This document shows, one piece after another, positions 11,304 through 30,872 of a stretch of DNA of 64,000 nucleotides (the stretch's first letter is position 1; each line of letters begins with the position of its first letter). The stretch is from Nocardioides panacis. Its GTDB lineage: Bacteria; Actinomycetota; Actinomycetes; Propionibacteriales; Nocardioidaceae. Under the pieces are notes generated by a model. It was not told the DNA's origin and searched no databases. It saw nothing but the letters and a program-made list of their open reading frames with translations. The stretch covers positions 310,001 to 374,000 of the forward strand of contig NZ_CP077062.1 in assembly GCF_019039255.1 (NCBI RefSeq), written 5' to 3'. The translations under genes were made by a program, and so were the position numbers.

Positions 11304-11319
11304 GTTCGATATCTCGGAC
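11304..11319. promoter_or_regulatory. Palindromic operator in the GH4/PLP-enzyme divergent region
   Basis: GTTCGATATCTCGGAC, a near-palindrome of the GTTCGA-N4-TCGAAC type shared with four other promoters in the island. On the minus strand a TTGACA (11368-11363) lies 44 bases upstream of it, the same -35-to-operator distance seen at 17776 and 22097. Probably bound by the IclR-type regulator at 16820. Confidence 0.6.
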
Positions 11320-11378
11320 ACTGTTCGGAGTGCTGTCATAGCCTGCTCGGGCTGGGTCGAGGTGTCAAGGAGGCAGGA

Positions 11379-12668
11379 GTGCCGAACGGCAACCGTGCAG
11401 AGGTGGAGGCGTTGCGGCACCGGCCGATCCGCCCCGAGGAGAAAGGTTTCGGTGGCCCCCGTCATCGGACGGCGACGACAGCCGCGGAGCTCTTGCTGTC
11501 GGGCACCCGCGCCGCCGACGGCTGGTTGGGCAGTCCTCGGGCGGTCGTGCGCGTGTCGGCGCTGGAGCACAACATCGCCACGATGGCGCGGTACTGCCGG
11601 GACCACGGCGTCGACCTATACCCGCACGGCAAGACGACGATGGCACCACAGGTCGTCGCGGCCCAGCTCGACGCCGGATCGGCCGGAGTGACCGTCGCCA
11701 CCGTCGCGCAGCTGCGAGTCTTCCAGGCGCACGGGCTCGGTCCCGGCCTCGTCGCCAATCAGGTCGTCGACGAGGCCGGCGCCTCCTGGCTGGGACGCAC
11801 CCTCGCGGACCACGGGCAGGTCGCCGCCAGCTGTTACGTCGACAGCGTCGAGGGAGCGACCAGGCTGGACCGGCTGGTGGCGGCGGCTCGCGGGGCCGGC
11901 ACGACGGCGCGTCTGGGCGTCCTGGTCGAGCTCGGGCACGCCGACGGGCGCACCGGCGCCCGCACCCTGCACCAGGCCCAGCAGGTGGCCGAGGCGGTGG
12001 CGGCCTCCAAGGCGCTGGAGCTGGTCGGGGTGGCGGGCTACGAGGGCTCCCTCGTCCGAGAGACGCCTTCGGAGGCTGCGCGGGCGGCGCGCGAGTTCTG
12101 TCTGGGCCTCGGCGACCTCGCCGGCCGGCTCCTGGCCCGCGGGCTGCTGCCCGAGCGTCCGATGGTCAGCGCCGGCGGCTCGGCGTACTTCGACGCGGTG
12201 GTCGACGCGCTCGCGGGGGAGGACGCTTGGCGGCTGGTCCTGCGCAGTGGCTGCTACGTCACGCACGACCACGGTCTCTACCACGACCTCTCGCCCTTCG
12301 AACGGTCCGACGAGGGCTACACCCTGCGACCGGCGCTGCAGGTCTTCGCCCCGGTGCTGTCGAGGCCCGAGGACGGCACGGTCGTGATCGGCGCGGGCCG
12401 GCGGGACGCCTCTTCGGACGGCGCGCTGCCGGTGGTGCTCGCCGCCCGGCGCGGCGACCGTCAGCTCGACGTGCGTGGTGTCCGGACCCTGCGGCTCTTC
12501 GACCAGCACCTCGTCGCCGCGACGCCGTCCAGCGGCTGCGAGCTCGAGCCCGGCGACGAGGTCCAGCTGGGCATCTCGCACCCCTGCACCACCTTCGACA
12601 AGTGGCGCTGGATACCCGTCGTTGACGACGACGACCGGATCGTCGACGTGCTGCGCACGTTTTTCTAA
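11379..12668 (+). CDS. PLP-dependent D-amino-acid deaminase / D-threonine aldolase-like enzyme
   Basis: 429-residue fold-type III PLP enzyme of the DSD1 / D-threonine aldolase / amino acid deaminase group. The PLP lysine is in YPHGKTTMAP (K85) at the start of the alanine-racemase-like barrel. The C-terminal metal site SHPCTTFDKW (H401, C403) matches the zinc site of D-serine dehydratases. GTG at 11379 is preceded by AAGGAGG at 5 bases. Known relatives dehydrate or cleave beta-hydroxy D-amino acids. Here it shares an operator with a glycosidase operon and with a RidA-containing oxidative operon, so a hydroxylated amino-sugar acid substrate is possible. The exact reaction is not assignable. Confidence 0.83.
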   Translation: MPNGNRAEVEALRHRPIRPEEKGFGGPRHRTATTAAELLLSGTRAADGWLGSPRAVVRVSALEHNIATMARYCRDHGVDLYPHGKTTMAPQVVAAQLDAGSAGVTVATVAQLRVFQAHGLGPGLVANQVVDEAGASWLGRTLADHGQVAASCYVDSVEGATRLDRLVAAARGAGTTARLGVLVELGHADGRTGARTLHQAQQVAEAVAASKALELVGVAGYEGSLVRETPSEAARAAREFCLGLGDLAGRLLARGLLPERPMVSAGGSAYFDAVVDALAGEDAWRLVLRSGCYVTHDHGLYHDLSPFERSDEGYTLRPALQVFAPVLSRPEDGTVVIGAGRRDASSDGALPVVLAARRGDRQLDVRGVRTLRLFDQHLVAATPSSGCELEPGDEVQLGISHPCTTFDKWRWIPVVDDDDRIVDVLRTFF

Positions 12669-12679
12669 AGGACGCCCTC

Positions 12680-12723
12680 GCGCAACGTCAGCGGGTCGCC
12701 TGGCGCACCCGCTGACGTTGCGC
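12680..12723. terminator. Perfect 17-bp inverted repeat between convergent genes
   Basis: GCGCAACGTCAGCGGGT (12680-12696) and ACCCGCTGACGTTGCGC (12707-12723) pair perfectly around a 10-base loop. The repeat overlaps the last codons of the FAH gene and lies just beyond the stop of the PLP enzyme gene, so it can serve as a bidirectional terminator. No T-run. Confidence 0.6.
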
Positions 12724-13548
12724 GCCGAGTCCCTCGATGCTGAGCTCGACCACGTCGCCCTCCTGCAGGTACTGGGGCGGGTTCATGCCCATGCCCACAC
12801 CGGGCGGAGTGCCGGTGTTGATGAGGTCGCCGGGCTCAAGCACCATGAACTGGCTCAGGTAGCGCACCACCTCGAGCACGGGGAAGATCATCGACTCGGT
12901 CGAGCCTTCCTGGCGCGTCCGGCCGTTGACTGCCAGGGTCAGCCCGAGCCGCTGCGGCTCGAGCACCTCGTCAGGCGTCACCAGCCAGGGACCGAGCGGG
13001 TTGAACGTCTCGCAGGACTTGCCCTTGACCCACTGGCCGCCCCGCTCGAGCTGGAAGTGCCGCTCCGACACGTCGTGCGAGACGCAGTAGCCGGCGATGA
13101 TGTCGGCCGCGTCCTGCTCGCTTGCGAGGTACCGGCCGGTGCCGCCGATGACGACGCCCAGCTCGACCTCCCAGTCGGTCTTGGTGCCGCCGACGGGGAT
13201 CAGCACGTCGTCCTCCGGGCCGATGACGGTGCTCGGCGCCTTGAAGAAGACGACCGGCTCTGCTGGCAGCTCCATGCCGGACTCCTGGGCGTGGACCGCG
13301 TAGTTCAGGCCGATGCACACGACCTTGCCGGGCCGTGCGACGGGCGCGCCCCAGCGCGGGATCGAAGCCGCGGGATGCCTGGGTAGGTCGTCGCGATCCT
13401 CGATGTCGCGGGCCAGGGTCCGTAGACCACCGCTCGCGAGGAAGGCTGCGTCGAAGTCTCCGACCACATCGGTGACGTCGACCACGACGTCGTCGCGCAG
13501 CACGCCCGGGCGCTCGTGGCCGACGGGCCCGAACCTGACCAGCTTCAC
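12688..13548 (-). CDS. Fumarylacetoacetate hydrolase (FAH) family protein
   Basis: 286-residue FAH-fold enzyme. The metal-binding acidic residues are in DWEVELGVVIG and YCVSHDVSERH; CIGLNYAVHAQESG and INTGTPPGVG are typical of acylpyruvate hydrolases/2,4-diketo-3-deoxy-aldonate hydrolases. GTG at 13548 follows GAGAGGAAA. It is the last gene of a leftward operon (SDR, RidA, dehydrogenase, SMP-30, FAH). In non-phosphorylative L-fucose and L-rhamnose routes FAH enzymes cleave the diketo acid to pyruvate or lactate plus an acid, which fits this setting, but the substrate is inferred. Confidence 0.87.
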   Translation of the reverse strand: MKLVRFGPVGHERPGVLRDDVVVDVTDVVGDFDAAFLASGGLRTLARDIEDRDDLPRHPAASIPRWGAPVARPGKVVCIGLNYAVHAQESGMELPAEPVVFFKAPSTVIGPEDDVLIPVGGTKTDWEVELGVVIGGTGRYLASEQDAADIIAGYCVSHDVSERHFQLERGGQWVKGKSCETFNPLGPWLVTPDEVLEPQRLGLTLAVNGRTRQEGSTESMIFPVLEVVRYLSQFMVLEPGDLINTGTPPGVGMGMNPPQYLQEGDVVELSIEGLGAQRQRVRQATR

Positions 13549-13601
13549 ATCTGTTTCCTCTCCTCGTGGGTGCCGGCGTGCTTGCCGGCCGATGTGCCGG
13601 C

Positions 13602-14483
13602 TCAGCCGGCGAAGGTACTGGGCGCCAGGCCCTGAACTCCTGGCCGGCAGCGGAAGACCGAACCGGCCAGAGGCTGCTCGGTCAGCTGCGCGGGGGACAG
13701 GCCGTCCCGTGCGGTCGTGACATACAGCTCGGCCAGCCCGTCGCCGCCGAACGTGACGCTCGTGACCAGGTCGACCGGCAACCTGACCTCGCGGTCGAGC
13801 TCGCCCCGCGGCGTGTATCGGCGTACGCAGCCGCCACCCCACAGCGCCAACCACAGGTATCCCTCGGCGTCCACCGTGAGGCCGTCAGGCAGCCCGTCGC
13901 GAGGCATCAGCTCGACCAGGGTGGTGCGCCCGACGATGGAGCCGTCCGCCGGATCCAGCTCGAGCCGGTCGAGGCTGCCACGGCCGGTGTCGACGTAGTA
14001 CATCTCCGTGCCGTCCGGCGACCAGGCGATGCCGTTGGAGTTCGTCACGCCGGCCAGCACCTCGCGAACGCTGCCGTCGGCGTCGAACCGGTAGAGCGCA
14101 GCCCGTCCGGTCGTCTCGTCGTAGGACAACGTCCCCGCCCAGAAATGGCCGAAGGGGTCGCAGGCGCCGTCGTTGAAGCGCGTCCCAGGACCCTGGCCGG
14201 GCGCCGGGACCACGTCGCCCTCCGGCCGCCAGGCGCCGTCGAGCAGCAGGAACCCGCGCTCGACCGCAGCGACCCAGCCGCCGTGCGCACGAGGGGCGAC
14301 GGCCCCGACCGGAGTCCCCAGGAGGTGCCGCGCGCTGGTCCCGGACACCGGGTCGACCACGTTCACCGCTCCCGCCAGGATGTCGACCCAGACGAGGGTC
14401 TTCGTGCCGACGTCCCAGCAGGGCCCTTCGCACAGGTCTCCGGCGCCGTGGACGAGGACGTCGTCCTGGGTCAGCACGCTCAC
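13602..14483 (-). CDS. SMP-30/gluconolactonase-like sugar lactonase
   Basis: 293-residue six-bladed propeller of the SMP-30/LRE family, which hydrolyses aldonolactones with a bound divalent metal. Visible motifs: the first metal Glu in LCEGPCWD, RFNDGACDPFGHFWAGTL, GVTNSNGIAWSPDGTEMYYVDT and PDGLTVDAEGYLW. GTG at 14483 overlaps the stop of the dehydrogenase gene (GTGA), so dehydrogenase and lactonase are coupled, consistent with oxidation of a sugar to its lactone followed by ring opening. Confidence 0.88.
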   Translation of the reverse strand: MSVLTQDDVLVHGAGDLCEGPCWDVGTKTLVWVDILAGAVNVVDPVSGTSARHLLGTPVGAVAPRAHGGWVAAVERGFLLLDGAWRPEGDVVPAPGQGPGTRFNDGACDPFGHFWAGTLSYDETTGRAALYRFDADGSVREVLAGVTNSNGIAWSPDGTEMYYVDTGRGSLDRLELDPADGSIVGRTTLVELMPRDGLPDGLTVDAEGYLWLALWGGGCVRRYTPRGELDREVRLPVDLVTSVTFGGDGLAELYVTTARDGLSPAQLTEQPLAGSVFRCRPGVQGLAPSTFAG

Positions 14484-15436
14484 AAGCGGATCACGGCTTT
14501 CACCGGGTCCTGCGCGCCGCCGGCCAGCTCCATGAAGATCCTCTGGGAGTCCTCCATGTCGATCGCGGTAGCCCACCCCAGGTCGAGGGATGCCGCCAGG
14601 CGAACTGCGTCCGCGAAGTCCTCGGGGCTGTAGGCGAACGACCCCACGACGCGCTTCTCGCCGCGCACCAGGCCGTTGCCGTCGAAGCCGGCCGCAGCCT
14701 CGGCGAGACCGAGCCACACGCTGGTCCCGCCCGGGCGCACGTGCTCGACAGCGGAGGCGCGGGTCTGCGCCGACCCGACCGCGTCGACGACGACGTCGTA
14801 CTCGCCTTCCAGTTCCTCCGCGCAGACAGCGGCCCCCAGCCGGCCGGCGAGCACGAGCCGGAAGCCGGAACGGTCGACGACCGTCACCTCGCCGAGCTGC
14901 TCGTGCGCGGCGACCAGCAGGCTCACGAGGCCGATGGCACCGGCCCCGATCACGGCGACCCGCCCGATCCCGCCCTGCTCGACCTGCCGCCAGGCGTGCA
15001 CGGCGTTGGCCAAGGGCTCGATGAGGGCGGCGGTTTCCCAGGTCATCTCGTCGGGGATGACGTGCACGGCCCCCGCAGGTACGGTGACACGCTCCGCGAA
15101 GCCTCCGGCCAGGTGCACGCCCAGCAGCTCGCGACGGCGGCACAGCTCGGGCTTGCCGCGGTGGCACAGGTCGCACTCGCCGCAGCTCAGCAGCGGGTTC
15201 ACCACGACACGTCGGCCATCCGGTGTCTCGCCGGCGAACTCATGACCCATCACCAGGGGCGGCCGGCGGAAACCGACGCTGCGAAACCCGTGCAGCTCGC
15301 TGCCGCAGATGCCGCTGGCCCGGACCGTGACCGGCACCCAGCCGTCACGAGCCCCCGGGGTGGCGACGTCCCGAAGCTCCATGGCTCCTGGGCCGGTGAA
15401 GACAAGGGCCCGCATGGTCTGCTGCGCTACGGTCAC
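14480..15436 (-). CDS. Zinc-dependent alcohol/sugar dehydrogenase (MDR family)
   Basis: 318-residue medium-chain dehydrogenase. The catalytic zinc site is GICGSELHG and GHEFAGE; the structural zinc site is CGECDLCHRGKPELC. The cofactor fold is VAVIGAGAIGLV with an acidic residue after the second strand (VVDRS), suggesting NAD. At 318 residues it is slightly short for sorbitol/threonine-dehydrogenase relatives. GTG at 15436 overlaps the RidA stop. Probably oxidises a sugar or polyol at the head of the route continued by the SMP-30 lactonase. Confidence 0.87.
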   Translation of the reverse strand: MTVAQQTMRALVFTGPGAMELRDVATPGARDGWVPVTVRASGICGSELHGFRSVGFRRPPLVMGHEFAGETPDGRRVVVNPLLSCGECDLCHRGKPELCRRRELLGVHLAGGFAERVTVPAGAVHVIPDEMTWETAALIEPLANAVHAWRQVEQGGIGRVAVIGAGAIGLVSLLVAAHEQLGEVTVVDRSGFRLVLAGRLGAAVCAEELEGEYDVVVDAVGSAQTRASAVEHVRPGGTSVWLGLAEAAAGFDGNGLVRGEKRVVGSFAYSPEDFADAVRLAASLDLGWATAIDMEDSQRIFMELAGGAQDPVKAVIRL

Positions 15437-15813
15437 CGGGCACCCTCTGCCACGACGTCGATCTCGACCAGGATGCCCAGCAGCTGCGAGCCGACCGTCG
15501 TCCGCACCGGGTACGGCTGGGGCACGAGGCGCCGGTAGACGGCGTCGAACCCCGCGAAGTCGCGCTCGAGATGAGCAAGGTGGACCGTGCTCTTCAAGAT
15601 GTGCGACAGGTCCAGGCCGACCGCGCCCAGCGCGCGTTCCACGTTCGCCAGGGTCGCCTCGGTCTGGGCCTCGATGCCTTCGGGGAACGCGCCCGTCTCG
15701 GGGTCGTGCGGTCCGAAGCCTGCGGTGAACGTCAGCTGGCTGGTCTGCGTGACATGGCTGTAGGCGCCTCCCGGCGCGGGTAGCTGGTCAACCACGTGCG
15801 AGGTGTGGGTCAT
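15433..15813 (-). CDS. RidA/YjgF family enamine/imine deaminase
   Basis: 126-residue RidA-fold protein. GGAYSHVTQTSQLTFTAGFG opens the family core; the usual Arg that holds the carboxylate is represented in the C-terminal strand PYPVRTTVGSQLL. ATG at 15813 follows AGGAGG. RidA proteins hydrolyse reactive 2-enamines/imines released by PLP dehydratases, so its presence fits the PLP deaminase-like enzyme at 11379, which carries the same operator. Direct evidence for that partnership is lacking. Confidence 0.88.
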   Translation of the reverse strand: MTHTSHVVDQLPAPGGAYSHVTQTSQLTFTAGFGPHDPETGAFPEGIEAQTEATLANVERALGAVGLDLSHILKSTVHLAHLERDFAGFDAVYRRLVPQPYPVRTTVGSQLLGILVEIDVVAEGAR

Positions 15814-15878
15814 GGGTCCTCCTGGTCTGCGACGGGTGGGTGAACGGTGCGAGGGCGTGCGGGCGCTAGGGCCTGCCC

Positions 15879-16643
15879 TTACATGACGGCGGTCTGGCCC
15901 CCGTCGACGACGAGCTCGGTGCCTGTGATGAACGAGGCGTCGTCGGAGGCGAGGAAGGCGTAGGCAGCAGCGATCTCCTGCGGCATGCCTGTACGCCGCA
16001 GAGGGACGTTCTCGCGGCCGTAGGTCTCGATGAAGTCCGGGGCGATACGAGCCGCGATCGTCTCGTTCAGCGCCGTACGGACGAACCCGGGGCAGAGTGC
16101 GTTGACACGGATGCCGTGCTCCGCGAGCTCGACCGCCATGGTCTTGGTCAGCAGCAGCACACCGGCCTTGGAGGCGTTGTAGTGCGTGTAGTCCTGTTCC
16201 GCCGCGAGACCGTTGGTCGACGACATGTTGATGATCGCGCCGCCGGTGCCTTGCTCGACCAGGAGCCGCGCGACCCCTTGTCCGACGAGGAACATCCCGC
16301 GGAGGTTGACCGCGAGCATGCGGTCCCAGTGCTCGGCGGTGATCTGGAGGAACGGTTCGCGCCACGCGGTACCGGCGTTGTTCACCAGGACGTCCACGCC
16401 GCCCAGCACCCGGCTGGCCGTCTCGACCAGCGAGGTTGCGCCGTCCTCCTGGCTGACGTCGGCCGCCACACCGTGCACGTCGCCGGCATCCCTCAGGGCG
16501 TGCACCGCACGCTCGACCTCGTCCGGTTCCAGGCCACCGATGACCACGGCGCACCCTTCCTCGACGAACCGACGGGCCGCCGCCGCCCCGATGCCGCTGC
16601 TGCCACCGCTGACGAGGACTCGCTTGCCGTGCAGACCGCGCAC
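15879..16643 (-). CDS. Short-chain dehydrogenase/reductase (SDR)
   Basis: 254-residue classical SDR. Cofactor motif SGGSSGIGAAAA, NNAGT, catalytic Ser in INMSSTNG, and Tyr/Lys in YTHYNASKAG; the C-terminus is VDGGQTAVM. GTG at 16643 is chosen because AGGAGGAGG precedes it by 5 bases and the fold begins right after; an upstream ATG would place the operator inside the gene. First gene of the leftward oxidative operon, controlled by a double operator at 16660-16693. Likely a sugar or hydroxy-acid dehydrogenase. Confidence 0.87.
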   Translation of the reverse strand: MRGLHGKRVLVSGGSSGIGAAAARRFVEEGCAVVIGGLEPDEVERAVHALRDAGDVHGVAADVSQEDGATSLVETASRVLGGVDVLVNNAGTAWREPFLQITAEHWDRMLAVNLRGMFLVGQGVARLLVEQGTGGAIINMSSTNGLAAEQDYTHYNASKAGVLLLTKTMAVELAEHGIRVNALCPGFVRTALNETIAARIAPDFIETYGRENVPLRRTGMPQEIAAAYAFLASDDASFITGTELVVDGGQTAVM

Positions 16644-16659
16644 CCGAACCTCCTCCTGC

Positions 16660-16725
16660 GTTCGACATGCTGAACGCGTGTCGATATCCTGACTCACGCT
16701 ACTGACGGTGCGGGCTGGCTGTCAA
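16660..16725 (-). promoter_or_regulatory. Promoter and double operator of the SDR operon
   Basis: On the minus strand TTGACA (16725-16720) and a weak -10 TAGCGT (16701-16696) are followed by two operator-like sites: a half-conserved one at 16693-16679 (GTCAGGATATCGACA) and GTTCGACATGCTGAAC at 16660-16675. Both resemble the island-wide GTTCGA-N4-TCGAAC motif. The region separates the SDR operon from the divergent IclR gene, so it may serve autoregulation as well. Confidence 0.55.
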
Positions 16726-16819: not shown

Positions 16820-17596
16820 ATGGGCCGCGCCGTCCCTGCTGCGAGCCGTGCGCTCGACATCTTGGAGCTGTTCCTGGACGACCCTGTCCTGTCGGCAGCG
16901 GAGGTCGTGAGCAAGCTGGCTCTCCCGCGCACCACCGTGCACGAGCTGCTCGGCACGTTGACCGACCGCAGCTACCTCGTGGTGGTCCCAGGTCAGCCCC
17001 TGCGCTACCAGCTCGGCGTCCGCCTCTTCCAGCTGGGCAGCGTGTTCGCGCAGCAGCTCGACCTGGCTCGCGAGGCGCAGCGTGTCGCCGCCGAAGTTGC
17101 TGCCGAGTGCGGCGAGACCGTGCACGTCGCGGTGCGTGAGGGCACGGACGTGATCTACATCGCTCGCGTGGAGAGCACGCACCCGGTCCGGATGGTCTCA
17201 GCGGTCGGCCGACGCCTTCCGGCGCACTGCACCGGTGTGGGAAAGATGCTGCTCTCGGCACTGAGCGAGCAGGCCCTGAACGCCCTGTACCCCAAGCAGA
17301 CCACCCTTCCGAAGATGACCCACGCCAGCATCTCCTCGCTGAGCAGGCTCAAGACTCAGCTGGCCGAGATCCGTGCGCGTGGGCTGTCGTACGACGAGGC
17401 GGAGTCCAGCGAGGACGTCCACTGCGTCGCCGCGGGCGTGCGCGACCACACCGGTGAGATGGTGGCCGGCCTGAGCATCTCGGTGCCGATCACCCGATGG
17501 GACGAGGACCGTCGTCGCGTGCTCGGCGAGCTGGTCACGGACGGCGCGGCGCGACTTTCGGCCAGCCTGGGGTACCGGGCCGCCGCAACGCGTTGA
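16820..17596 (+). CDS. IclR-family transcriptional regulator
   Basis: 258-residue IclR protein. A winged helix-turn-helix (residues about 8-60, recognition region LPRTTVHELLGTL) is followed by a GAF-like effector domain (GETVHVAVREGTDVIYIARV, RLPAHCTGVGKMLLS, GLSYDEAESSEDVHCVAAGV). ATG at 16820 is at the usual distance from the HTH. It lies at the centre of the operons that carry the 16-bp palindrome and is the best candidate for the protein that binds it. IclR proteins may repress or activate; the operators lie downstream of the promoters, which favours repression. Confidence 0.88.
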   Translation: MGRAVPAASRALDILELFLDDPVLSAAEVVSKLALPRTTVHELLGTLTDRSYLVVVPGQPLRYQLGVRLFQLGSVFAQQLDLAREAQRVAAEVAAECGETVHVAVREGTDVIYIARVESTHPVRMVSAVGRRLPAHCTGVGKMLLSALSEQALNALYPKQTTLPKMTHASISSLSRLKTQLAEIRARGLSYDEAESSEDVHCVAAGVRDHTGEMVAGLSISVPITRWDEDRRRVLGELVTDGAARLSASLGYRAAATR

Positions 17597-17725: not shown

Positions 17726-17791
17726 TTGACAGTCACCGGCCCGGACGGCATCGTGCGTGCCACGGCCCGAACGCTGTACGAAATTTCGAAC
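17726..17791 (+). promoter_or_regulatory. Promoter and operator of the first amidohydrolase/ABC operon
   Basis: TTGACA at 17726-17731, a poor -10 (about 17749-17754), and the operator GTACGAAATTTCGAAC at 17776-17791, 14 bases before the ATG at 17806. The -35-to-operator distance (44-45 bases) equals that at 22097 and 11304. Confidence 0.55.
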
Positions 17792-17805
17792 GGACGGGGA
17801 CAGTC

Positions 17806-18876
17806 ATGACCAGCGATCTTGACCTTCACGGCCTGCCTCTGCGCGACTACGCGCCCCAGTCGTCGCTCGTCGTCCCCGAGCACCATCCGCGGCGGTCGGT
17901 CGTCCCGGCCGTCGACGTGCACAACCACCTGGGTCGCTGGCATCGCGGGGAGTGGACCGTGCCGTCGGTGCCCGAGCTCGTGCGTGTCATGGACGAGTGC
18001 AACGTCGCCACGATCGTGAACCTCGACGGATGCTGGGGCGAGGAGCTCGAGGCCAACCTCGACCGCTATGACCGCGCGTTCCCCGGTCGCTTCCTGTCCT
18101 TCTGTCGCCTCGACTGGTCGCAGTGCGCGAGCTCAGACGACTGGGGCACCTCGTTCGCCGCGTCGTTGCGCGACTCCGTGGCTCGTGGCGCGGGCGGCAT
18201 CAAGCTTTGGAAGGACGTCGGCCTGCACGTGCGGGACCGGGACGGCGACCTCGTCCTGCTCGACGACCCACGGCTCGAGCCGCTGTGGGAGGCGTTGGCC
18301 GACACCGGCACCCCGGTGCTCGTGCACACCGCAGACCCCGCCGCCTTCTTCCGCCCGGTGGATGCGCGCAACGAGCGGCTGGAACAGCTGCTCGCGAGGC
18401 CCGACTGGCAGTTCTCCGGCGACGAGTTCCCGTCGCTGGAGCGACTGCTGGGTGCGCTCGAGACGGTGGTGTCCCGGCATCGGGACGTGACCTTCATCGG
18501 TGCGCACGTCGGCTGTTTCGTCGAGGACCTGCAATGGGTCGACCGGATGCTCAGCAGCTACCCCAACTTCAACGTGGACATCGCCGCTCGCGTCGGCGAC
18601 CTGGGGCGCCAACCGCGAGCGGCCGCGCGCCTGGTGCGGCAGCACCCGGACCGGGTCCTGCTCGGCACCGATGCCTTCCCGCCCCGCAGCGAGGACTACC
18701 GGCTGTACTTCCGGTTCCTCGGCACGGACGACGAGTACTTCGCGTACTCCGACGAAGACCCCCCGGGCGACGGCCGCTGGCGCGTCTACGGGCTCGATCT
18801 GCCCGACGACGTGCTGAGTCGTGTCGTCGGTGACAACGCACGAGACCTCATCCCCAGACTCGCGACGGGAGCATGA
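17806..18876 (+). CDS. Amidohydrolase-family protein (COG2159-like), copy 1
   Basis: 356-residue metal-dependent TIM-barrel hydrolase/lyase. The N-terminal metal motif DVHNHLGRW gives the HxH pair; other expected ligands are the His in FIGAHVGC and the Asp in LLGTDAFP; GGIKLWKDVGLHV lies between them. Members of the family act as lactonases, decarboxylases or hydrolases, so the reaction is open. A close paralogue is at 22125-23246, and the two bracket the ABC transporter genes. First gene of an operon leading directly into the binding protein (stop overlaps an in-frame ATG). Confidence 0.82.
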   Translation: MTSDLDLHGLPLRDYAPQSSLVVPEHHPRRSVVPAVDVHNHLGRWHRGEWTVPSVPELVRVMDECNVATIVNLDGCWGEELEANLDRYDRAFPGRFLSFCRLDWSQCASSDDWGTSFAASLRDSVARGAGGIKLWKDVGLHVRDRDGDLVLLDDPRLEPLWEALADTGTPVLVHTADPAAFFRPVDARNERLEQLLARPDWQFSGDEFPSLERLLGALETVVSRHRDVTFIGAHVGCFVEDLQWVDRMLSSYPNFNVDIAARVGDLGRQPRAAARLVRQHPDRVLLGTDAFPPRSEDYRLYFRFLGTDDEYFAYSDEDPPGDGRWRVYGLDLPDDVLSRVVGDNARDLIPRLATGA

Positions 18877-18878
18877 TC

Positions 18879-20201: not shown

Positions 20202-20228
20202 AGCCCGCGGAAGGGAGGGGACGCAACC

Positions 20229-22039: not shown

Positions 22040-22047
22040 CGACGGCG

Positions 22048-22112: not shown

Positions 22113-22124
22113 AGGACTTCGCTG

Positions 22125-23246
22125 ATGACGATCCCTCTTGATGGTGACCTGCCGCTGAGCCGCTACCGGCCCAGGGCGCGTCTGTCCCTGCCCGAGCACA
22201 CGGTCACGACCGCCCGCTCCCGCGCCATCGACGCCCACAGCCACATCGGGCGGTGGCTCAGCGCCTGGGCGGACCGGGAGGGCGAGTGGCTGGTGAAGGA
22301 CGTCGAGCCCTGGCTCGAGGAGATGGCCGGCTACAACGTGCACGGGTTCGTCAACCTCGACGGACGGTGGGGGGAGGAGCTGCGCCTCAACCTCGAGCGC
22401 TTCGACGAGCGCCACCCCGACCGCATCGCGACGTTCTGCCACGTCGACTGGTCGCTTCTCGAGCAGCCCTCGAGCGATCGTGCGCTGGCCGACAACCTGG
22501 CCGACTCCGTGGCCGCGGGTGCGGCCGGGGTCAAGGTCTGGAAGGACCTCGGCCTGCACGTCCGTGACGGTGCCGGTGAGCTGGTGCTGCCGGACGACGA
22601 GCGACTTGCCGGCGTCTGGCAGACGGCCGGTGAGCTCGACATCCCTATCTGGTGGCACATCGCGGACCCGTTGGCGTTCTTCGACCCCGTCGACGAGCAC
22701 AACGAGTTCCTGGAGCTGCTCGCGGAGCGCCCGGACTGGTCGTTCGCTGGTCCGGAGTACCCCACCTTCGAGCGGCTCATGGACGCCCTGGAAGCCGTCG
22801 TAGCCGCCCATCCGCGCACGCGGTTCGTGGCCGTGCATGCGGGCTGCAATGCCGAGGACCTCGGCTGGGTCGGCCGGATGCTCGACACCTACCCCAACCT
22901 GCACATCGACATCGCCGCCCGGCTCTCGCAGCTGGGCAGGCAACCGCGCGCGACCCGCGAGCTGGTACTGCGCCACCCGGACCGCGTCCTGTTCGGCTGC
23001 GACGAGATACCGCACACCGGGTCCAGCTATCCCAGGCACTTCCGCTTCCTGGAGACCGAGGACGAGCACTTCCCGCACTCGGACGACGACCCGCCGATGA
23101 TGGGCCGCTGGGCCATCAGCGGCATCGGCCTCCCGGACGACGTCCTGCAGGCCGTGTACGCCGACAACGCCGCACGGCTGGTGCCCCGCCTGACGGCCGC
23201 CACCGAGCAAACCCACCCGACGAGCAAGCAGGACGTGACCCCGTGA
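22125..23246 (+). CDS. Amidohydrolase-family protein (COG2159-like), copy 2
   Basis: 373-residue paralogue of the protein at 17806-18876. It shares DAHSHIGRW (HxH metal pair), FVNLDGRWGEELRLNLERFD, AGVKVWKDLGLHVRD, AVHAGCNAEDLGWVGRML and LFGCDEIPHTG, where the metal Asp is expected (copy 1 has LLGTDAFP). Many spaced identities show a duplication, but they have diverged enough that different substrates are plausible. First gene of an operon with GH4, NagB-like, PfkB and aldose-epimerase genes, each overlapping or nearly overlapping the next. Confidence 0.82.
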   Translation: MTIPLDGDLPLSRYRPRARLSLPEHTVTTARSRAIDAHSHIGRWLSAWADREGEWLVKDVEPWLEEMAGYNVHGFVNLDGRWGEELRLNLERFDERHPDRIATFCHVDWSLLEQPSSDRALADNLADSVAAGAAGVKVWKDLGLHVRDGAGELVLPDDERLAGVWQTAGELDIPIWWHIADPLAFFDPVDEHNEFLELLAERPDWSFAGPEYPTFERLMDALEAVVAAHPRTRFVAVHAGCNAEDLGWVGRMLDTYPNLHIDIAARLSQLGRQPRATRELVLRHPDRVLFGCDEIPHTGSSYPRHFRFLETEDEHFPHSDDDPPMMGRWAISGIGLPDDVLQAVYADNAARLVPRLTAATEQTHPTSKQDVTP

Positions 23247-24562
23247 CCAAGATCGCCATCATCGGAGCCGGCGGGTACGAGTTCCCGCTGCAGCTGATGA
23301 ACGACTTCCTGTCCTTCGAGAGCACCCAGGACGCGCACTACGCGCTGATGGACATCGACCCGCAGTCACTGGCCCGGACGGAACGGCTGGCGCGACGTCT
23401 GGTCGATGCCCACGACCTTCCCGCGAAGATCGAACCGACCACCGATCGCGCCACCGCGCTGGCCGGCGCAGACTTCGTCGTGGTCTGCTTCCAGGTGGGG
23501 GGTCGGGACGCGTACGCCGTCGACATGGAGGTCCCACGGCGCTACGGCGTCGACCAGACCGTCGGTGACACCCTCGGCCCGGGTGGCGTCTTCCGCGGTC
23601 TGCGGTCGATGAAAGCGCTCGAGGAGATCACCCAGGACATGCTGCGGTTGTGCCCGGACGCGCTGCTGCTCAACTACGCGAACCCGATGGCGATCAACTG
23701 CTGGTTCGCATCGTCCCAGGGCATCCGCACCACGGGCCTGTGTCACTCCGTGCAGCACACGGCGGACGAGCTTGCCTCGATCATGGGACTCGAGGACGGG
23801 ACGTGGTCGTTCCGGGCGGCCGGCATCAACCACCAGGCGTGGATGCTGGACTTCCGGCACCACGGCCGCGACGTCACGGCCGAGCTCCGCACCGCGGTGA
23901 ACGAGTACCACGCGGGCAACCGTGCGCCCCTCCGTCCGCTGGACGAGTGGTACGCGGGCGGCCGGGAGAGCGTTCGGACGGCGATCATGAACCTCACCGG
24001 CTACTTCCAGACAGAGTCCAGCCACCACGCGTCCGAGTACTACCCGCACTTCCGGCGCGACCCTGCCCAGGTGCAGGCCCTGCTGCCCGAGCGCTGGGAC
24101 TACCTGGACATCACGCGCGGCAACAACGAGGCCCAGCTGGACCAGATGGCCACCGAGTTCGCCGACGGCACGCTCGCCGTCAGCGAGGAGTACGCCGCGC
24201 GCATCATCGACTCGGTGCTCACCAACACCCCTCGGGTCGTCTACGGCAACGTGCCCAACACCGGCCTGATCACCAACCTCCCGGACGGCTGCTGCGTCGA
24301 GGTGCCGTGCCTGGTCGACCAGAACGGCGTCCAACCGACGTTCGTCGGCGACCTGCCGGCCGCCGGTGCGGGGATCGACCTCGCCTCCGTGGGCTACCAG
24401 CAGTGCGTCGTGGAGGCCTACCGCCAGCGCTCCAAGGACCTCGTCTACACGGCCGTCTCGCTCGACCGGTTGACCAGCTCCCTGCTCGGCCTCGACCAGA
24501 TTCGGACCATGACCGACGAGATGATCGCCGCGCAGCAGCAGTGGCTGCCCGAGCTCGGCTGA
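23243..24562 (+). CDS. Glycoside hydrolase family 4, alpha-galactosidase-type, second copy
   Basis: 439-residue GH4 enzyme with KIAIIGAGGYEFPLQLM at the N-terminus, NYANPMA, the metal residues in LCHSV (C167, H168) and GINHQAWM (H197). The CHSV signature again points to an alpha-galactosidase, but overall it is clearly different from the GH4 at 9939-11246, so it is not a recent duplicate. GTG at 23243 overlaps the previous stop. The neighbours (NagB-like deaminase, kinase, mutarotase) suggest it releases a galactose- or galactosamine-type sugar. Confidence 0.87.
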   Translation: MTKIAIIGAGGYEFPLQLMNDFLSFESTQDAHYALMDIDPQSLARTERLARRLVDAHDLPAKIEPTTDRATALAGADFVVVCFQVGGRDAYAVDMEVPRRYGVDQTVGDTLGPGGVFRGLRSMKALEEITQDMLRLCPDALLLNYANPMAINCWFASSQGIRTTGLCHSVQHTADELASIMGLEDGTWSFRAAGINHQAWMLDFRHHGRDVTAELRTAVNEYHAGNRAPLRPLDEWYAGGRESVRTAIMNLTGYFQTESSHHASEYYPHFRRDPAQVQALLPERWDYLDITRGNNEAQLDQMATEFADGTLAVSEEYAARIIDSVLTNTPRVVYGNVPNTGLITNLPDGCCVEVPCLVDQNGVQPTFVGDLPAAGAGIDLASVGYQQCVVEAYRQRSKDLVYTAVSLDRLTSSLLGLDQIRTMTDEMIAAQQQWLPELG

Positions 24563-24594
24563 CCGGCCCGCGGGCCGCGATGAAGGAGAAGCAC

Positions 24595-25492
24595 GTGTCA
24601 GGACCGGTCAACCCCACCGATCTGGTGCGCTGGTGCGCCGTCCCGGTCGAGGGGCTCGTCGACCATCCCGAGCGCCGGGTGCCGCTGCGCCTGTGCGCCG
24701 ACCCGCTCGAGATGGGCCGACTGATGGCCCACGAGCTGGTCGACGAGATCGAGCGCGCCGGCCTGGAGGGGAGGACGTTCCGCGCGATCATCCCCTGCGG
24801 TCCCAGCGGCTGGTACGCCCCCCTTCACAGATCTCGTCAACGCCCGTCGCGTGCACCTCGGGCACGTCGAGGTGTTCCACATGGACGAGTGCCTGGACTG
24901 GGAGGGCGGCGACCTGCCGCGGTCCCACCCGTACAGCTTCCGGGGCTTCATGGAGCGGCACTTCTACGACCCCGTGGACCCCGAGCTGGCCGTGCCCGAG
25001 GGCAACCGGTACTGGCCGGACCCCACTCGGCTCGGGCAGCTCACGCAGCAGCTCCTTGCGACTCCGGCCGACCTGGCCTACGGAGGATGGGGCCAGGACG
25101 GTCACGTCGCCTACAACCAGGCCCGGCGACACCCGTTCAGCCAGCTGTCGGTCCAGCAGCTGCGGCAGTCGACCGCTCGCGTGCAGGAGAACAACGTCGA
25201 CACCGTGGTCGCGCTGGCACAGCGCACGTTCGGCGGCGCCTACCAGCTGGTTCCGCCGATGTCGGTGACCCTGGGCATGCGCGAGATCCTGTCCGCACGG
25301 CGGATCCGGCTGTTCAGCGACACCGGCGCCTGGAAGCAGACCGCCCTGCGGGTCGGGCTGTTCAGCCCGGTCACCGCTGAGTACCCGATCACCCTCCTGC
25401 AGGAGCACCCCGACGCTCTGCTCACCGCAACGGTCGAGACGGCGACGCACCCGATCAGCCTGCATCCCGAGTGGGACCTGGGCCTGTCATGA
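24595..25492 (+). CDS. NagB-like 6-phosphogluconolactonase/glucosamine-6-phosphate deaminase family protein; one-base frameshift
   Basis: About 298 residues of the NagB/6-phosphogluconolactonase fold. The diagnostic region is LAYGGWGQDGHVAYN (GGIGxDGHIAFN in classical NagB) with VFHMDECLDWEGG before it. A run of six C (24818-24823) carries one surplus base; removing it joins GPSGWYAP to FTDLVNARRVHLGH. GTG at 24595 follows AAGGAG by 6 bases. Probably deaminates or isomerises an amino-sugar phosphate made by the kinase that follows; the altered motif (Trp for Ile, no Glu-Pro after Asn) leaves room for a different substrate. Confidence 0.82.
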
Positions 25493-26517
25493 CACGGCGC
25501 TACGACGTCGTCGTCGGCACCGGGGGCATCGGGTCGGGCATCTTCCTCGCTCTCGAAGGCAACCGCACCCTCGGCCGAGAGGAGAGTCGTCCGGCCGAGC
25601 TGCTGGACCAGCGCGACTACTGCAAGCTGCACATCGTCAGTCACTACGTGCAGCGGCTGCTGGGACCCGAGGTGCCGGTCGTGCCCATCGGCAAGGTGGG
25701 TGAAGACGACGCCGGGCGGGTGGTCCTGGGGGAGATGCAGGCCGTCGGGCTCGACACCGCACTGGTGACGACCTCGCCGCGTCCGACGCTGTTCGCGGTC
25801 TGCTTCCTCTACCCGGACGGCGACGGCGGCAACCTGTCGACCAACCGCTCCGCGAGCTCGGACGTCAGCCCTTCCGACGTCCAGCGGGCGGCACGGCTGT
25901 TCACGGCTCATCCGGGACGGGGGGTGGCCGTCGCCCTGCCGGAGGTGCCGCTGCCCGCCCGCCGAGCCCTGCTCGAGCTCGCGACCGCGCATGGGTGGCT
26001 GCGCGTGGCAGGAGTCGTCCCCGACGAGCTGGAACAGGTGCGCGACAGCGGTCTGCTCGGTCTCGTCGACGTCCTGGCGCTCAACATCGAGGAGGCTGCA
26101 AGGCTCGGCGGTGTCTCCGTCGAGCAACCGGCGACGGAGGTCGTCGTGGCCGCACTGGAGGCGTTGGCGGAGCTGCGCAGCCCGGCACGGGTCGTCGTGA
26201 CCGCCGGTGCCCGGGGCAGCTGGACCTGGGACGGCCACGACCTCGTGCACGCTCCGGCGTCCGACCCCGGGGGAGAGGTCGTCAGCACGGCCGGTGCCGG
26301 GGACGCACACCTGTCCGGCGTCGTGGTCGGCCTGGTCGCGGGCCTGGAGCTGGCGCCGGCCAACGCCTTCGCCTCGATCGTGTCCGGGCTGAAGGTCCGG
26401 AGCCCGCACACCATCAACCCCGATATCGACCCTCGAGCCGTGGTCGACGCCGCGGTCCGTCGTGGCTTCGCTCTCCCGCCCGAGCTGTTTGACGTCCTCG
26501 CCGGGGCCAGCGCGTGA
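25489..26517 (+). CDS. PfkB-family sugar kinase
   Basis: 342-residue PfkB kinase. The N-terminus VVVGTGGIGSGIFLALEGN is unusual for the family. The C-terminal catalytic motif is STAGAGDAHLSGVVVG (catalytic Asp in GAGD), with VVVTAGARGSWTWDG before it. ATG at 25489 overlaps the previous stop (ATGA). In this operon it is the likely kinase for the sugar released by the GH4 enzyme, upstream of the NagB-like step. Confidence 0.85.
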   Translation: MTRRYDVVVGTGGIGSGIFLALEGNRTLGREESRPAELLDQRDYCKLHIVSHYVQRLLGPEVPVVPIGKVGEDDAGRVVLGEMQAVGLDTALVTTSPRPTLFAVCFLYPDGDGGNLSTNRSASSDVSPSDVQRAARLFTAHPGRGVAVALPEVPLPARRALLELATAHGWLRVAGVVPDELEQVRDSGLLGLVDVLALNIEEAARLGGVSVEQPATEVVVAALEALAELRSPARVVVTAGARGSWTWDGHDLVHAPASDPGGEVVSTAGAGDAHLSGVVVGLVAGLELAPANAFASIVSGLKVRSPHTINPDIDPRAVVDAAVRRGFALPPELFDVLAGASA

Positions 26518-27597
26518 CAGGGACCCCCGACTGCCGCCCCTTCGGCACGCTGCCGGACGGCCGCGCCGTGGAGGCCTGGCGGATGACGAACGACGTCGGG
26601 ATGACCGTGGACGCGCTGACCTATGGCGGGGTCCTGCTCACGGTCGAGGTGCCCGACCGCCGTGGCGATGTCCGCAACGTCGTCCTGGGGTTGCCCACGC
26701 TCGCGGACTACGTCGAGCGCAGCCCGTACTTCGGGGCGGTGGTTGGGAGGTTCGCCAATCGGATCGCCGACGGGACGTTCGCCATCGACGGGACGACCTA
26801 CCAGGTGCCGGTGAACGACCCTCCGACCAGCGTCCACGGAGGCAGGGAGGGCTTCGACAAGAAGGTGTGGCACGCAAGCCCCGTGGCGGAGGAGGCCTGG
26901 GTCGGCGTCCGGCTCGGCTACGTCAGTCCGGACGGCGAGGAGGGCTACCCCGGCGCGCTTGACACCGAGGTCACATACCGACTGGCGCGTGACCGCGCCA
27001 CGCTGCGCGTGGACTACCGTGCGACGACCGACAGGCCCACGGTCGTGAACCTCACCAACCACACCTTCTTCAACCTCGCCGGCGAGGGCAGCGGGAGTGT
27101 GCTCGACCACGTCGTGCAGATCGCGGCGAGCCGCTACCTTCCGCTCACGGACACGCTGCTCCCGACCGGCGAGCTGGCTGCGGTCGCCGGCACTCCGCTG
27201 GACTTCCGCGCCCCTCGGACGATTGGCGAGCGCATTCGGAGCGGCTTCGACCAGCTCGTGCTGGCCCGCGGCTACGACCACAACTTCGTGCTCGACCGAG
27301 AGAGCGTCGCGGACGGCGAGCTGGCGTTCGCCGTCCGGGTCACCGAGCCGCGATGCGGGCGCGTCCTGGAGGTGTGGACCACCGAACCGGGGGTCGACTT
27401 CTACACCGGCAACTTCTTGGACGGGTCACTCGTCGGACCCAGCGGGGGCACTTACCGGCAGGGGGGACGGGCTGGCGATCGAGCCGGAGCACTTCTCGAA
27501 CTCGCCCAACGAGGCGCTGTTCCCGAGCACGGTCCTGCGCCGGGGGCAGCAGTACGCCTCTGCGACGGAGTACCGCTTCTCCGACCTGATCTCCTGA
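26514..27597 (+). CDS. Aldose 1-epimerase (galactose mutarotase family); one-base frameshift
   Basis: About 360 residues. The family motifs are all visible: VGRFANRIADGTF, SVHGGREGFDKKVW, NLTNHTFFNLAGEG with the catalytic His, and YDHNFVLD. A run of six G at 27461-27466 breaks the frame; without one G it reads TYRQGDGLAIEPEHFSNSPN and ends at 27597, the normal C-terminus. GTG at 26514 overlaps the kinase stop. Interconverts anomers of the free sugar released by the glycosidase. Confidence 0.88.
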
Positions 27598-27602
27598 CGT
27601 GC

Positions 27603-28454
27603 TCAGCCCTTCACTGCCGAGGAGGTGAGTGACTGGATGAAGGTCCGCTGCGCGGCCAGGAACGCGACCAGGACGGGAAGCACGGTGATCATGTTCCCCG
27701 CCATGACTGCCGCCCACTGCGTGCGGTGCTGGCCCTGGAAGGTCGTGAGACCCAGCTGCAGCGTGTAGTTGTGGTCGTTGTTGATCGCGATCAGCGGCCA
27801 GGCCAGGTCGTTCCAGGTGGTGAGGAACGTCAGGACCGCGACCGTTCCGAGGGCGGGACGAGCCAGCGGAATGACGATGACCCACAGGGTGCGCAGCCTG
27901 GAGCAGCCGTCGATCCAGGCGGCCTCCTCGATCTCGCGTGGCAGCGACAGGAAGAACTGGCGGAGCAGGAACACCGCGAACGGCGTCACCAGCGAGGGCA
28001 CGATCAGGGCGCCCAGGGTGTCGATGATGCCGAGGTCCTTCATCAGCAGGAACGACGGGATCATCGTGATCTGGAAGGGGATGATGAGCGTGCCGAGCAT
28101 GAGCGCGAGCAGCACCTTGGACCCGCGGAACCGCATGCGCGCGAATGCGTAGCCAGCGAGCGAGCCGAAGAGCAGGTTCCCCACGACGACCACCAGCGCG
28201 ACGATCATGGAGTTCATGAACCATCGCGGGAAGAGCGCGTTCTGCAGCACGTAGCGGTACCCGTCGAGGTGTAGCGAGTCGGGGATGATGGTGGGAGGGA
28301 ACCGGTTGATCTGGGCGTTCGTCATGAACGAGCTGAGCGTGAGCCACACCAGGGGCAGGGCGAAGAACAGGCTCACCGGCAGCAGCACGAAGTGCCAGGC
28401 GCTGAAGGGCAGGAACCGGCGGGTCGGTCGTCGTCCGGGCAGCTGGGTGGTCAT
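27603..28454 (-). CDS. Sugar ABC transporter permease (MalG type), second system
   Basis: 283-residue permease with six membrane segments and the EAA loop EEAAWIDGCSRLRTLWVIVI. ATG at 28454 overlaps the stop of the upstream permease (ATGA). The gene ends 5 bases from the convergent mutarotase gene, with no hairpin between them. Confidence 0.9.
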   Translation of the reverse strand: MTTQLPGRRPTRRFLPFSAWHFVLLPVSLFFALPLVWLTLSSFMTNAQINRFPPTIIPDSLHLDGYRYVLQNALFPRWFMNSMIVALVVVVGNLLFGSLAGYAFARMRFRGSKVLLALMLGTLIIPFQITMIPSFLLMKDLGIIDTLGALIVPSLVTPFAVFLLRQFFLSLPREIEEAAWIDGCSRLRTLWVIVIPLARPALGTVAVLTFLTTWNDLAWPLIAINNDHNYTLQLGLTTFQGQHRTQWAAVMAGNMITVLPVLVAFLAAQRTFIQSLTSSAVKG

Positions 28455-29398
28455 CGCGCGTCCACCTCCTGGTGTCGACGGATCAGTCTCATGCCGATGC
28501 TCACGATGAGCAGGCTGAAGGCCAGGACGTACGCCCCCGCTGCGGCGTACCCCGCGGTGAATAACTGGAAGGCCTGGTTCCAGACAAAGAACACGATTAC
28601 GGTCGTGGACTCCAGCGGGCCGCCGCGGGTGGTGACGAAGACCAGGTCGAAGACCTGGAGGGCCTGCAGGGTCTCCCACACGGACAGGAAGATCGTGATC
28701 GGTTTGAGGGTGGGCCAGACGACGTAACGGAACGTTCCCCACGAGCGAGCCCCGTCGATCGCCGCCGCCTCGAGCAGCTCTTGCTGGATGTCCTGCAGCC
28801 CCGCGAGGTACACCACGACGCAGAATCCCAGGCCGCTCCAAAGCCCGATGACGACCAGCAGCAGCAGGGCCTGGTTGCTGTCTGCGAAGAACCCTTGGGG
28901 CGGGACGCCGAACCACCCCAGCACGGCGTTGGCGATGCCGAAATGAGCGTCGAAGATGAACGAGAACAGCACGCCCTGGGCCGCGGCGGAGATGACGAAC
29001 GGGACGAACACCAGGGTGCGGTACAGCCCGATGAACCGGATCTTCCGGTTGAGCATCACCGCCAGCCCCAGGCCGCCGCCGATGCTGAGCGGGACGAACA
29101 AACCCGCGTAGATGAGGGTGTGGATGCAGGCGGCCCGGAAGTTCGGGTCCTTCGACAGGACCCGGTAGTTCTGCAGGCCGATCCACCGAGCCGGAGTCAC
29201 AAGGTCCGCCGACTGCATGGACAGCACGAGCGACCAGATCATCGGGATGATGCTGAGACCGATGATGATCACGGCCGCCGGCAGCACGAACCCCCACGAC
29301 TCCGGGGTCTCGCCCAGCCACCGCTTCGCCAGGGACCGGCGCCGCGCACGGGTTGCGTCGTGGTGGTCGACGGCGAAGCGCCAGGACGATGTGGCCAT
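28451..29398 (-). CDS. Sugar ABC transporter permease (MalF type), second system
   Basis: 315-residue permease with six membrane segments (first about residues 37-57). The EAA loop is LEAAAIDGARSWGTFRYVVW. ATG at 29398 lies 8 bases after the binding-protein stop. No ATPase gene accompanies it. Confidence 0.9.
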   Translation of the reverse strand: MATSSWRFAVDHHDATRARRRSLAKRWLGETPESWGFVLPAAVIIIGLSIIPMIWSLVLSMQSADLVTPARWIGLQNYRVLSKDPNFRAACIHTLIYAGLFVPLSIGGGLGLAVMLNRKIRFIGLYRTLVFVPFVISAAAQGVLFSFIFDAHFGIANAVLGWFGVPPQGFFADSNQALLLLVVIGLWSGLGFCVVVYLAGLQDIQQELLEAAAIDGARSWGTFRYVVWPTLKPITIFLSVWETLQALQVFDLVFVTTRGGPLESTTVIVFFVWNQAFQLFTAGYAAAGAYVLAFSLLIVSIGMRLIRRHQEVDAR

Positions 29399-29406
29399 CC
29401 CGCTGG

Positions 29407-30740
29407 TCAGCTCGTCGCGAGGGCGGCGTTGGCCGAGCTCACGGCCGCGTCCAGCGCGTCCTGCGGGGTCGCCTTGTCCAGCAGCATCGACACGATCGCC
29501 TGGCCCAGGGGCTGTGAGATCTTCGGGTAGGTGGGGATCGTGGGGCGGGTCCGCGCGTAGGTGAGCGCGCTGGAGAAGGCGTCAAGTCCGACGGTCTTGC
29601 TCACGTGCTGCTGCCACTCCGCCGACTCCGCGGTGCTGCTGCGCAGCGGGAGGCTCCCGGCCTGGCCTGCCCACTGCACGTCCTGGGCTCCTTCGGTCAG
29701 GAACGTCAGGAACTTCACCGCGGCCTCGACTCGCGCGGAGCCATTGTCGAAGACCGTCCAGGTGTCCGGCCCGGCAATGGTGACGTTGTCGCCGTTGAAG
29801 GTGGGCAGGGGCACCACGCCGTACTCTGTCTTGTTCTCGATGAAGTTGGGCAGCTGCCACGGACCCGTCGGGATCATGCCCATCTTGTTGTTGTTGAAGA
29901 TCTGGTACATCGTCTCGCTGCCCGGCTTGGTGTCGGGGTACACGGACTTGTCCTTCGCGAGCTGGTTGATGGTCTCCAACGCCTTGAGGCCGCTGTCGCC
30001 GTCGAAGGCCACCTTCTTGCCGTCCTCGGAGACGATGTCACCGCCCAGGTCCCAGATGAGCGGGTAGATGCGCCAGACGCAGTCCTCACCGCCGTCGGCG
30101 GGCCACCCGGTGCCGAAGATGCCCTTGCCGGGGTCCGTGAGCCGCAGGGCGGTGGCCGTGAAGTCGTCCCAGGTCCATCCCGGCTCGGGTGCCGGCATCC
30201 CGGCGTCCTTGAACACCCTCTTGTTGTAGGCCACGCAGAGGTTGTCGACCAGTGCCGGGAAGCCACGCGGCTCCCCGTCGACTGTGACGGCGTCACGAGC
30301 AGCTGGGTAGAAATCGTCCCACTTGACGTTGGCCTGCTTGGTGTACTTGCCGAGGTGCGCCACCTTGGGGCTGCGCGCGACGCTCGCGATGTCCGGCCCG
30401 AAGATGTAGGCGATGTCGGGGTACTGGCCCGCGGCCAGCGCGGTGGTGATCTTCTGCAACATGCTGTCGGCGAGGACGCCGCCGCTGGTCGCGTTCACCT
30501 TGATCTTGGGGTTCTTCGCGTGGAAGGCGGCGACCAGCTTGTCGAGAGTCTCCTTGCCCTGGTCAGCCTGGCCGTGCCACATCGTGATGCTCACCGTGCC
30601 GTCGGCGGCCACGCCGTCGGAGGCGCCGTCACCGCTGCACGCCGCGAGGAGGGGGGCCAGCGCCGACGAGCCCGGCAAGGCCGACCCCCCCCGCGCAGCA
30701 GGTTGCGGCGGGACAAGAAGGGATTCTCGGGCAGGGGCAC
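29407..30740 (-). CDS. Sugar ABC transporter substrate-binding lipoprotein, second system; N-terminal frameshifts
   Basis: About 443 residues. The natural start is GTG at 30740, preceded by AGGAG (30750-30746). From there the frame gives VPLPENPFLSRRNLLRGG, and after removing one base each from the C8 run at 30685-30692 and the G6 run at 30651-30656 it continues VGLAGLVGAGPLLAACSGDG. This is an RR-containing (possibly Tat) signal peptide with a lipobox. The mature family-1 binding domain follows (VSITMWHGQADQGKETLDKL). Operators at 30803-30837 precede it. Confidence 0.85.
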
Positions 30741-30802
30741 GGTTGCTCCTATGCGTCGGTGCCGCGATGGGCACGTGTCCTAGTGCTCGATGGATGATCG
30801 GC

Positions 30803-30872
30803 GTTCGGCCTGTCGAACGCAGTCCGATATCACGACGGTGGGAACGCTAACTCGCCTGGTAGGCGGTGTCAA
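30803..30872 (-). promoter_or_regulatory. Promoter and tandem operators of the second ABC operon
   Basis: On the minus strand TTGACA (30872-30867) and a weak -10 (TTAGCG, 30850-30845) are followed by two operator-like palindromes: 30837-30822 and GTTCGGCCTGTCGAAC at 30803-30818. These are the fifth promoter region in the island with the GTTCGA-N4-TCGAAC motif. Confidence 0.55.

Follow-up and report, generated by a model that had tools for sequence, protein, structure and literature searches.

A tandem palindromic operator at five promoters of a sugar island in Nocardioides panacis and its probable reader, a local IclR-family protein

What could place under common control a set of sugar genes that, judged one by one, look like separate pathways? 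The question is raised by a stretch of 64,000 nucleotides of the Nocardioides panacis contig NZ_CP077062.1 (hereafter the window; all coordinates are positions within it), where five operons are each preceded by a 16-bp palindrome and a gene for an IclR-family regulator stands at 16820-17596. A preliminary description of this DNA had proposed that the palindrome, GTTCGA-N4-TCGAAC, defines a regulon read by the IclR protein. From the sequence comparisons made here, we conclude that the protein is very probably a local repressor acting as two dimers over the transcription starts of the five operons.

A 35-bp tandem operator at five promoters

A search with the pattern GTTCGA-N4-TCGAAC recovered the main sites where they had been described, with zero to two mismatches each: none at 22097, one each at 11304, 17776 and 30803, and two at 16660. 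Four places in the window carry at most one mismatch, whereas 300 Markov simulations averaged 0.14 and never exceeded 2, a result that contradicts, at this stringency, the idea that the motif is no commoner than in random DNA of like composition. Genome-wide, 27 places reach this level (5 for a reversed-pattern control), four of them inside a span of 19.5 kb, a clustering with a Poisson P of ~3e-6 given the other 23 in the genome; the perfect form occurs only once in the whole genome. The palindrome centre is mostly N-A-T-N, the exception and weak point being 30803, without the central AT. When up to three mismatches were allowed, the window held 39 matches against a shuffle mean of 28.1, a mild enrichment equaled in 4 of 100 shuffles, and matching at this level was dropped as uninformative. 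This small excess is what an explanation by chance matches in GC-rich DNA can draw on; that explanation is barely credible against the count at one mismatch, the 19-bp spacing and promoter geometry given next, and the footprints in other species.

The operator proved to be larger than the palindrome first described. Each main palindrome is paired with a second one, with centers 19 bp apart (Table 1), and the pairs are clear tandems where the partner has three mismatches (17757 and 22078) or four (the 30803/30822 pair). Over 20 anchors from the window and nine relatives, the offset of 19 gave a mean of 4.35 mismatches, compared with 8.28 (standard deviation, 0.58) at 79 other offsets. Because this partner is general, the lone 16-bp palindrome was rejected as the unit: the sites of the preliminary description stand, and the unit is a 35-bp tandem whose partners at 17757, 22078 and 11323 had been missed.

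The TTGACA or TTGACG boxes reported ahead of all five sites were located as -35 boxes 24 to 29 bp from the 35-bp operator (Table 1). Adding 19 bp to each gap, the distances to the gene-proximal palindrome are 43, 44, 44, 43 and 48 bp for the operators at 11304, 16660, 17757, 22078 and 30803, respectively, so that the distance, previously called constant at three sites, agrees at four of the five (43-44 bp; the fifth, 48 bp). An operator 24 to 29 bp past the TTGAC box should therefore cover the transcription start, and this layout fits repression by polymerase blocking. In the mechanism that we propose, two IclR dimers would, without effector, occupy the two adjacent 16-bp palindromes, the weaker next to the putative -10 position (assigned by eye) and the stronger 19 bp deeper into the transcribed region. 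Lying together over the transcription start, they would stop RNA polymerase at all five promoters of an island for the breakdown of galactosides, or perhaps of galacto-configured amino sugars. Release of the repressor would come from a compound made in the pathway, a sugar acid or a lactone, and two ATP-binding cassette (ABC) importers, two glycosidases of glycoside hydrolase family 4 (GH4), a phosphorylative branch and an oxidative branch would be switched on together.

The operators were also recovered with models that contain no window sequence. A position weight matrix (PWM) of 15 operators from eight genomes of another family of the same order scored the window tandems at 24.3, 22.3, 20.6 and 17.9, and the one at 16660 at 10.9, with a maximum of 10.4 in eight simulated windows. 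A genome-wide scan of the kind proposed in the preliminary description was run over the 4.9-Mb genome with a model of 38 relatives' operators (29 of 43 nonredundant ones, 14 being left out, and 9 from the genomes of the other family). With 150 of 576 first-look candidates scored, the scan returned nine rows. Eight of these fall on four of the window sites, within 14 kb of iclR, as in a local regulon whose operators cluster around the regulator gene and are scarce in the rest of the genome. The ninth row, at genome position 2842509 (E 2.45), lies inside a called frame (L151) and is probably a chance match.

Table 1. Coordinates of the operators, promoter boxes, regulator and proposed target genes in the window
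Feature	Coordinates	Strand	Details
Proposed target operon (GH4a)	7459..11246	-	GH4a 9939-11246; AgaS-type SIS protein 8658-9848; major facilitator superfamily (MFS)-like transporter 7459-8661 (below NCBIfam cut-offs)
Tandem operator, GH4a operon	11304..11338	-	Strong 11304-11319, weak partner 11323-11338; PWM 24.3, window best; footprint with L076
-35 box TTGACA, GH4a operon	11363..11368	-	24 bp from operator
Pyridoxal phosphate (PLP) enzyme (Ala_racemase_N, D-ser_dehydrat)	11382..12668	+	Divergent from GH4a
Proposed target operon (SDR)	12688..16646	-	Short-chain dehydrogenase (SDR) 15879-16646; RidA 15433-15855; alcohol dehydrogenase (ADH) 14480-15436
SDR operon, further genes	13602-14483; 12688-13854	-	SGL lactonase; fumarylacetoacetate (FAA) hydrolase
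Tandem operator, SDR operon	16660..16694	-	16660-16675 and weak partner 16679-16694; weakest of five; footprint with L064, L076
-35 box TTGACA, SDR operon	16720..16725	-	25 bp from operator
IclR-family regulator, proposed repressor	16820..17596	+	258 aa; HTH_IclR and IclR_C
-35 box TTGACA, amidohydrolase-1 operon	17726..17731	+	25 bp from operator
Tandem operator before amidohydrolase 1	17757..17791	+	Weak 17757-17772, strong 17776-17791; found by mismatch count, PWM, genome scan
Proposed target operon (amidohydrolase 1)	17806..22059	+	Amidohydrolase 1 17806-18876; sugar ABC transporter 18873-22059
-35 box TTGACG, amidohydrolase-2 operon	22048..22053	+	24 bp from operator
Tandem operator before amidohydrolase 2	22078..22112	+	Weak 22078-22093, perfect 22097-22112; footprint with L064, L077
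Proposed target operon (amidohydrolase 2)	22125..27632	+	Amidohydrolase 2 22125-23246; GH4b 23243-24562; glucosamine-6-phosphate (GlcN6P)-deaminase-like; PfkB kinase; aldose 1-epimerase
Proposed target operon (second ABC)	27603..30774	-	Solute-binding protein and two permeases (second sugar ABC transporter)
Tandem operator, second sugar ABC operon	30803..30837	-	30803-30818 and partner 30822-30837; footprint with L076, TTGACA conserved
-35 box TTGACA, second ABC operon	30867..30872	-	29 bp from operator

The IclR protein and the operators of its relatives

The regulator has both domains of its family, scoring 158 bits for IclR_C (curated cut-off, 24) and 40.4 bits for the N-terminal HTH_IclR (cut-off, 22). 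Its two best NCBIfam matches, BhcR (NF045644; 174.7 of the 350 bits required) and KdgR (NF011671; 155.1 of 275), are both under their curated cut-offs. The helix PRT[TS]VHE is kept in all ten aligned orthologues. The genome has ten IclR_C matches; seven of the other nine could be aligned at the helix-turn-helix, all with different recognition helices, and no tandem was found in any 3-kb region around the nine.

Orthologues with 54-60% identity occur in the eight genomes of the other family and one with 45% in a further genome (G151), while among the matches listed for six same-genus genomes none exceeds 39%. The scan model was applied to these 15 genomes and to four of the same family without a close orthologue, 19 in all. 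Best E values in the eight genomes with an orthologue were 5.5e-4 to 2.9e-6, although five of the eight match by construction since they gave operators to the model; G151 gave one match (E 0.40), and none of the six same-genus genomes, which have no close orthologue, gave an operator match at E<=1.

The wider spread of the system was surveyed by a scan of named genomes, from which the 80 best IclR relatives (61-72% identical) were kept; these belong to Micromonospora globispora (72%), Actinomadura, Actinoallomurus, Streptosporangiaceae and many Streptomyces. The 19-bp tandem is present in 63 of the 80 loci. Pairs at offset 19 number 71, compared with 0 to 23 at the other offsets from 10 to 60; the reversed pattern gave none, and permuted half-sites gave none in 29 of 30 controls and three in one. 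A TTGAC stands 22-30 bp upstream, on either side, in 59 of the 71 operators, with 42 occurrences at exactly 26 bp, and control intervals gave 1, 2 and 0. In a tree of 34 rows, the window protein pairs with that of M. globispora (99/94).

Operators also precede the same genes in three syntenic loci of the relatives. At the M. globispora locus (L064), they stand ahead of amidohydrolase 2 and in the SDR-iclR interval. In a metagenome-assembled genome labeled Acidobacteria (L076), they occur in the interval from GH4a to the PLP gene, at SDR, and ahead of both iclR and the second ABC operon; Actinomadura pelletieri (L077) has two, one next to iclR and the other ahead of amidohydrolase 2. Alignment footprints place an operator at the matching position for four of the five window promoters (GH4a, SDR, amidohydrolase 2 and the second ABC operon), the amidohydrolase-1 promoter being comparable only with the amidohydrolase-2 paralogues of the relatives. 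Because the tandem travels with the neighboring iclR gene in related genomes, one IclR protein probably controls all five operons. The earlier proposal of a shared operator read by this protein draws support from the co-occurrence with its orthologues, the footprints, the genome scan free of window sequence and the lack of a tandem near the other IclR genes.

A different protein on these sites, such as the GntR/UTRA protein at 31838, whose gene adjoins the fifth operator, is very improbable, as the tandem tracks iclR in the loci surveyed and the motif fits a published IclR subgroup (see below). Typical GntR/HutC sites also differ in shape from these palindromes. As for the mode of action, activators mostly bind upstream of the -35 box, whereas the tandem lies downstream of it at all five window promoters and at the 59 relatives' operators counted above. 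Activation or dual regulation by the IclR protein at the same sites, for which the family offers published examples (PMC8222616), is improbable in our view, and repression by the IclR protein is preferred.

It is important to consider the observations that weigh against such a repressor regulon. Two of the operators, those at 11304 and 16660, have degenerate partner palindromes with six mismatches each. The operator at 16660 is absent from the genome-scan list (in which 150 of the 576 candidates were scored), has an E of 1.2 in the window-only scan, and is outscored in the PWM by a coding match at 13449 (13.6), which lies inside the FAA-hydrolase gene and was rejected as probably due to chance. 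In other genomes, the operator centers of G151 are 20 bp apart, three of the four family genomes without a close orthologue give weak matches (E 0.06-0.64), and 17 of the 80 orthologue loci have no tandem in the fetched DNA, some of them being ended by contig ends. Some good matches in the other family are far from iclR (G132:C1:2961290, E 6e-5); therefore, the regulon need not be local everywhere. Finally, since the consensus of the preliminary description served to find the relatives' operators, part of their resemblance to the palindrome is built in; their spacing, their position at promoters and their proximity to iclR do not depend on it.

With respect to the regulator's own gene, no operator stands directly ahead of the iclR start in the window; in L076, the operator ends 29 bp before the matched iclR start. 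Four closely related genomes (L018, L019, L021 and L022) carry an extra palindrome with two mismatches upstream of iclR, 70 bp from the strong site of the tandem and nearer to the iclR start, which is possibly an autoregulatory site.

Target genes, effector and origin of the island

The minus-strand arrangement supports the assignment of the 11304 site to the GH4 operon, while its control of the divergent PLP gene, also claimed originally, is only plausible. Both GH4 proteins, GH4b among them, score over the NCBIfam alpha-galactosidase cut-off, as does a tagatose kinase over its own; the AgaS-type protein (469.6 against 529.2) and the GlcN6P-deaminase-like frame remain below theirs. With the aldose epimerase and a GatZ/KbaZ-like gene, these point to galactosides, perhaps galactosamine, as the substrate of the island. 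An oxidative route might be made up of the SDR, lactonase, PLP enzyme, RidA, ADH and FAA hydrolase, with a 2-amino sugar acid losing ammonia before the diketo-acid hydrolase cleaves it. The GlcN6P-deaminase-like gene (~24580-25492) is spread over two frames, a likely N-terminal part followed by the open frame 24725-25492, and may reflect a frameshift or a sequencing error.

The PWM and model scans of the window detected no operator belonging to the tagatose-kinase gene at 6097 or to any of the genes beyond 31 kb. The latter include, past the last operator, the genes at 31033-39410 (PhyH, GntR/UTRA, a third solute-binding protein, PfkB, GatZ/KbaZ-like and SIS), which perhaps form a separate unit.

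The genes beside the relatives' operators bear on the effector. Gene calling beside promoter-oriented operators gave 60 genes across the 80 loci; 16 are strongly like an arabinofuranosidase-type frame of L084, and 26 (L084 included) are strongly like the solute-binding protein of L083. Pfam searches with six operator-adjacent genes gave an arabinofuranosidase, a GH43 protein, an aldose 1-epimerase and two sugar-binding proteins, one gene having no match. The C-terminal part of the L084 frame (15238-17382, 714 aa) is arabinofuranosidase-like, and the frame also resembles solute-binding proteins from other loci; it is perhaps a fusion or an assembly artifact. L-Arabinose shares the configuration of D-galactose at their common carbons. 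Because the orthologues stand with arabinofuranosidase-type genes and the two sugars share this configuration, we tentatively suggest an arabino- or galacto-configured effector, a guess that we would expect to fail more often than to hold.

The island is patchy and probably acquired, since 6 of 147 genomes, this one included, contain a match to amidohydrolase 2 at E<=1e-40, and none of the six same-genus genomes does. The only tRNA gene found in the window, a tRNA-Met at 4935-5011, lies ~1 kb before the sugar genes, and the island may have entered there. Two identical 1,583-bp IS110-family copies (41498-43080 and 56067-57649) have a 395-aa transposase frame (Pfam Transposase_20, DEDD_Tnp_IS110); ahead of the called frame, 375 bases are identical between them. 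In a rather doubtful scenario, the tandem-operator IclR module would have entered this patchy island together with its operators. Its targets would then have shifted away from L-arabinofuranoside genes such as those of Streptomyces-type loci, becoming a galactoside/galactosamine regulon of five promoters that joins the phosphorylative route to the oxidative one (dehydrogenase, lactonase, PLP ammonia-lyase, RidA and diketo-acid hydrolase), while the effector stayed a galacto- or arabino-configured sugar acid.

Comparison with known systems and meaning

BlcR of Agrobacterium binds two neighboring inverted repeats as a tetramer. It is the best-scoring solved relative of the IclR alignment (PDB 3mq0), and its target, blcABC according to the PDB title, differs from those in the window. 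TtgV (PDB 2xrn, 2xro) is a weaker match (E 3.2e-23); Suvorova and Gelfand (2021, PMC8222616) cite the complex with its operator as a model for cooperative binding by a tetramer. They describe a group-1 operator subgroup, NGT-12-ACN (NGTYCRAW4TYGRACN), in which sugar genes and COG1028 dehydrogenases are reported to be frequent, and tandem sites with centers 18-22 nt apart in 94 orthologous groups. GTTCGA-N4-TCGAAC fits the subgroup, sugar genes and COG1028 dehydrogenases are common to both, and the spacing of 19 bp falls inside the published range. The site at 22097 is exact at the specified bases except for the first center base (C, where the consensus has W), and the window centers, N-A-T-N, differ from the subgroup in not always having four A/T bases. 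According to the same source, IclR proteins generally control themselves and one or two adjacent operons, in contrast to the five promoters assigned to one local regulator here. Consequently, by these published descriptions, the mechanism class is already known, and the window case is a further example with a larger local target set. The passages found in a second paper, PMC12772271, contain nothing that connects it with this orthologue group.

The common operator at five operons supports the earlier view that co-regulation would link genes seemingly of separate pathways, and the proposed regulon both ties these genes together and names their regulator. Its operator model can be used to find targets of a widespread actinobacterial group of IclR proteins. 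Furthermore, the regulon indicates a possible oxidative route, through SDR, lactonase, PLP lyase, RidA, ADH and FAA hydrolase, for a galacto-configured, perhaps amino, sugar.

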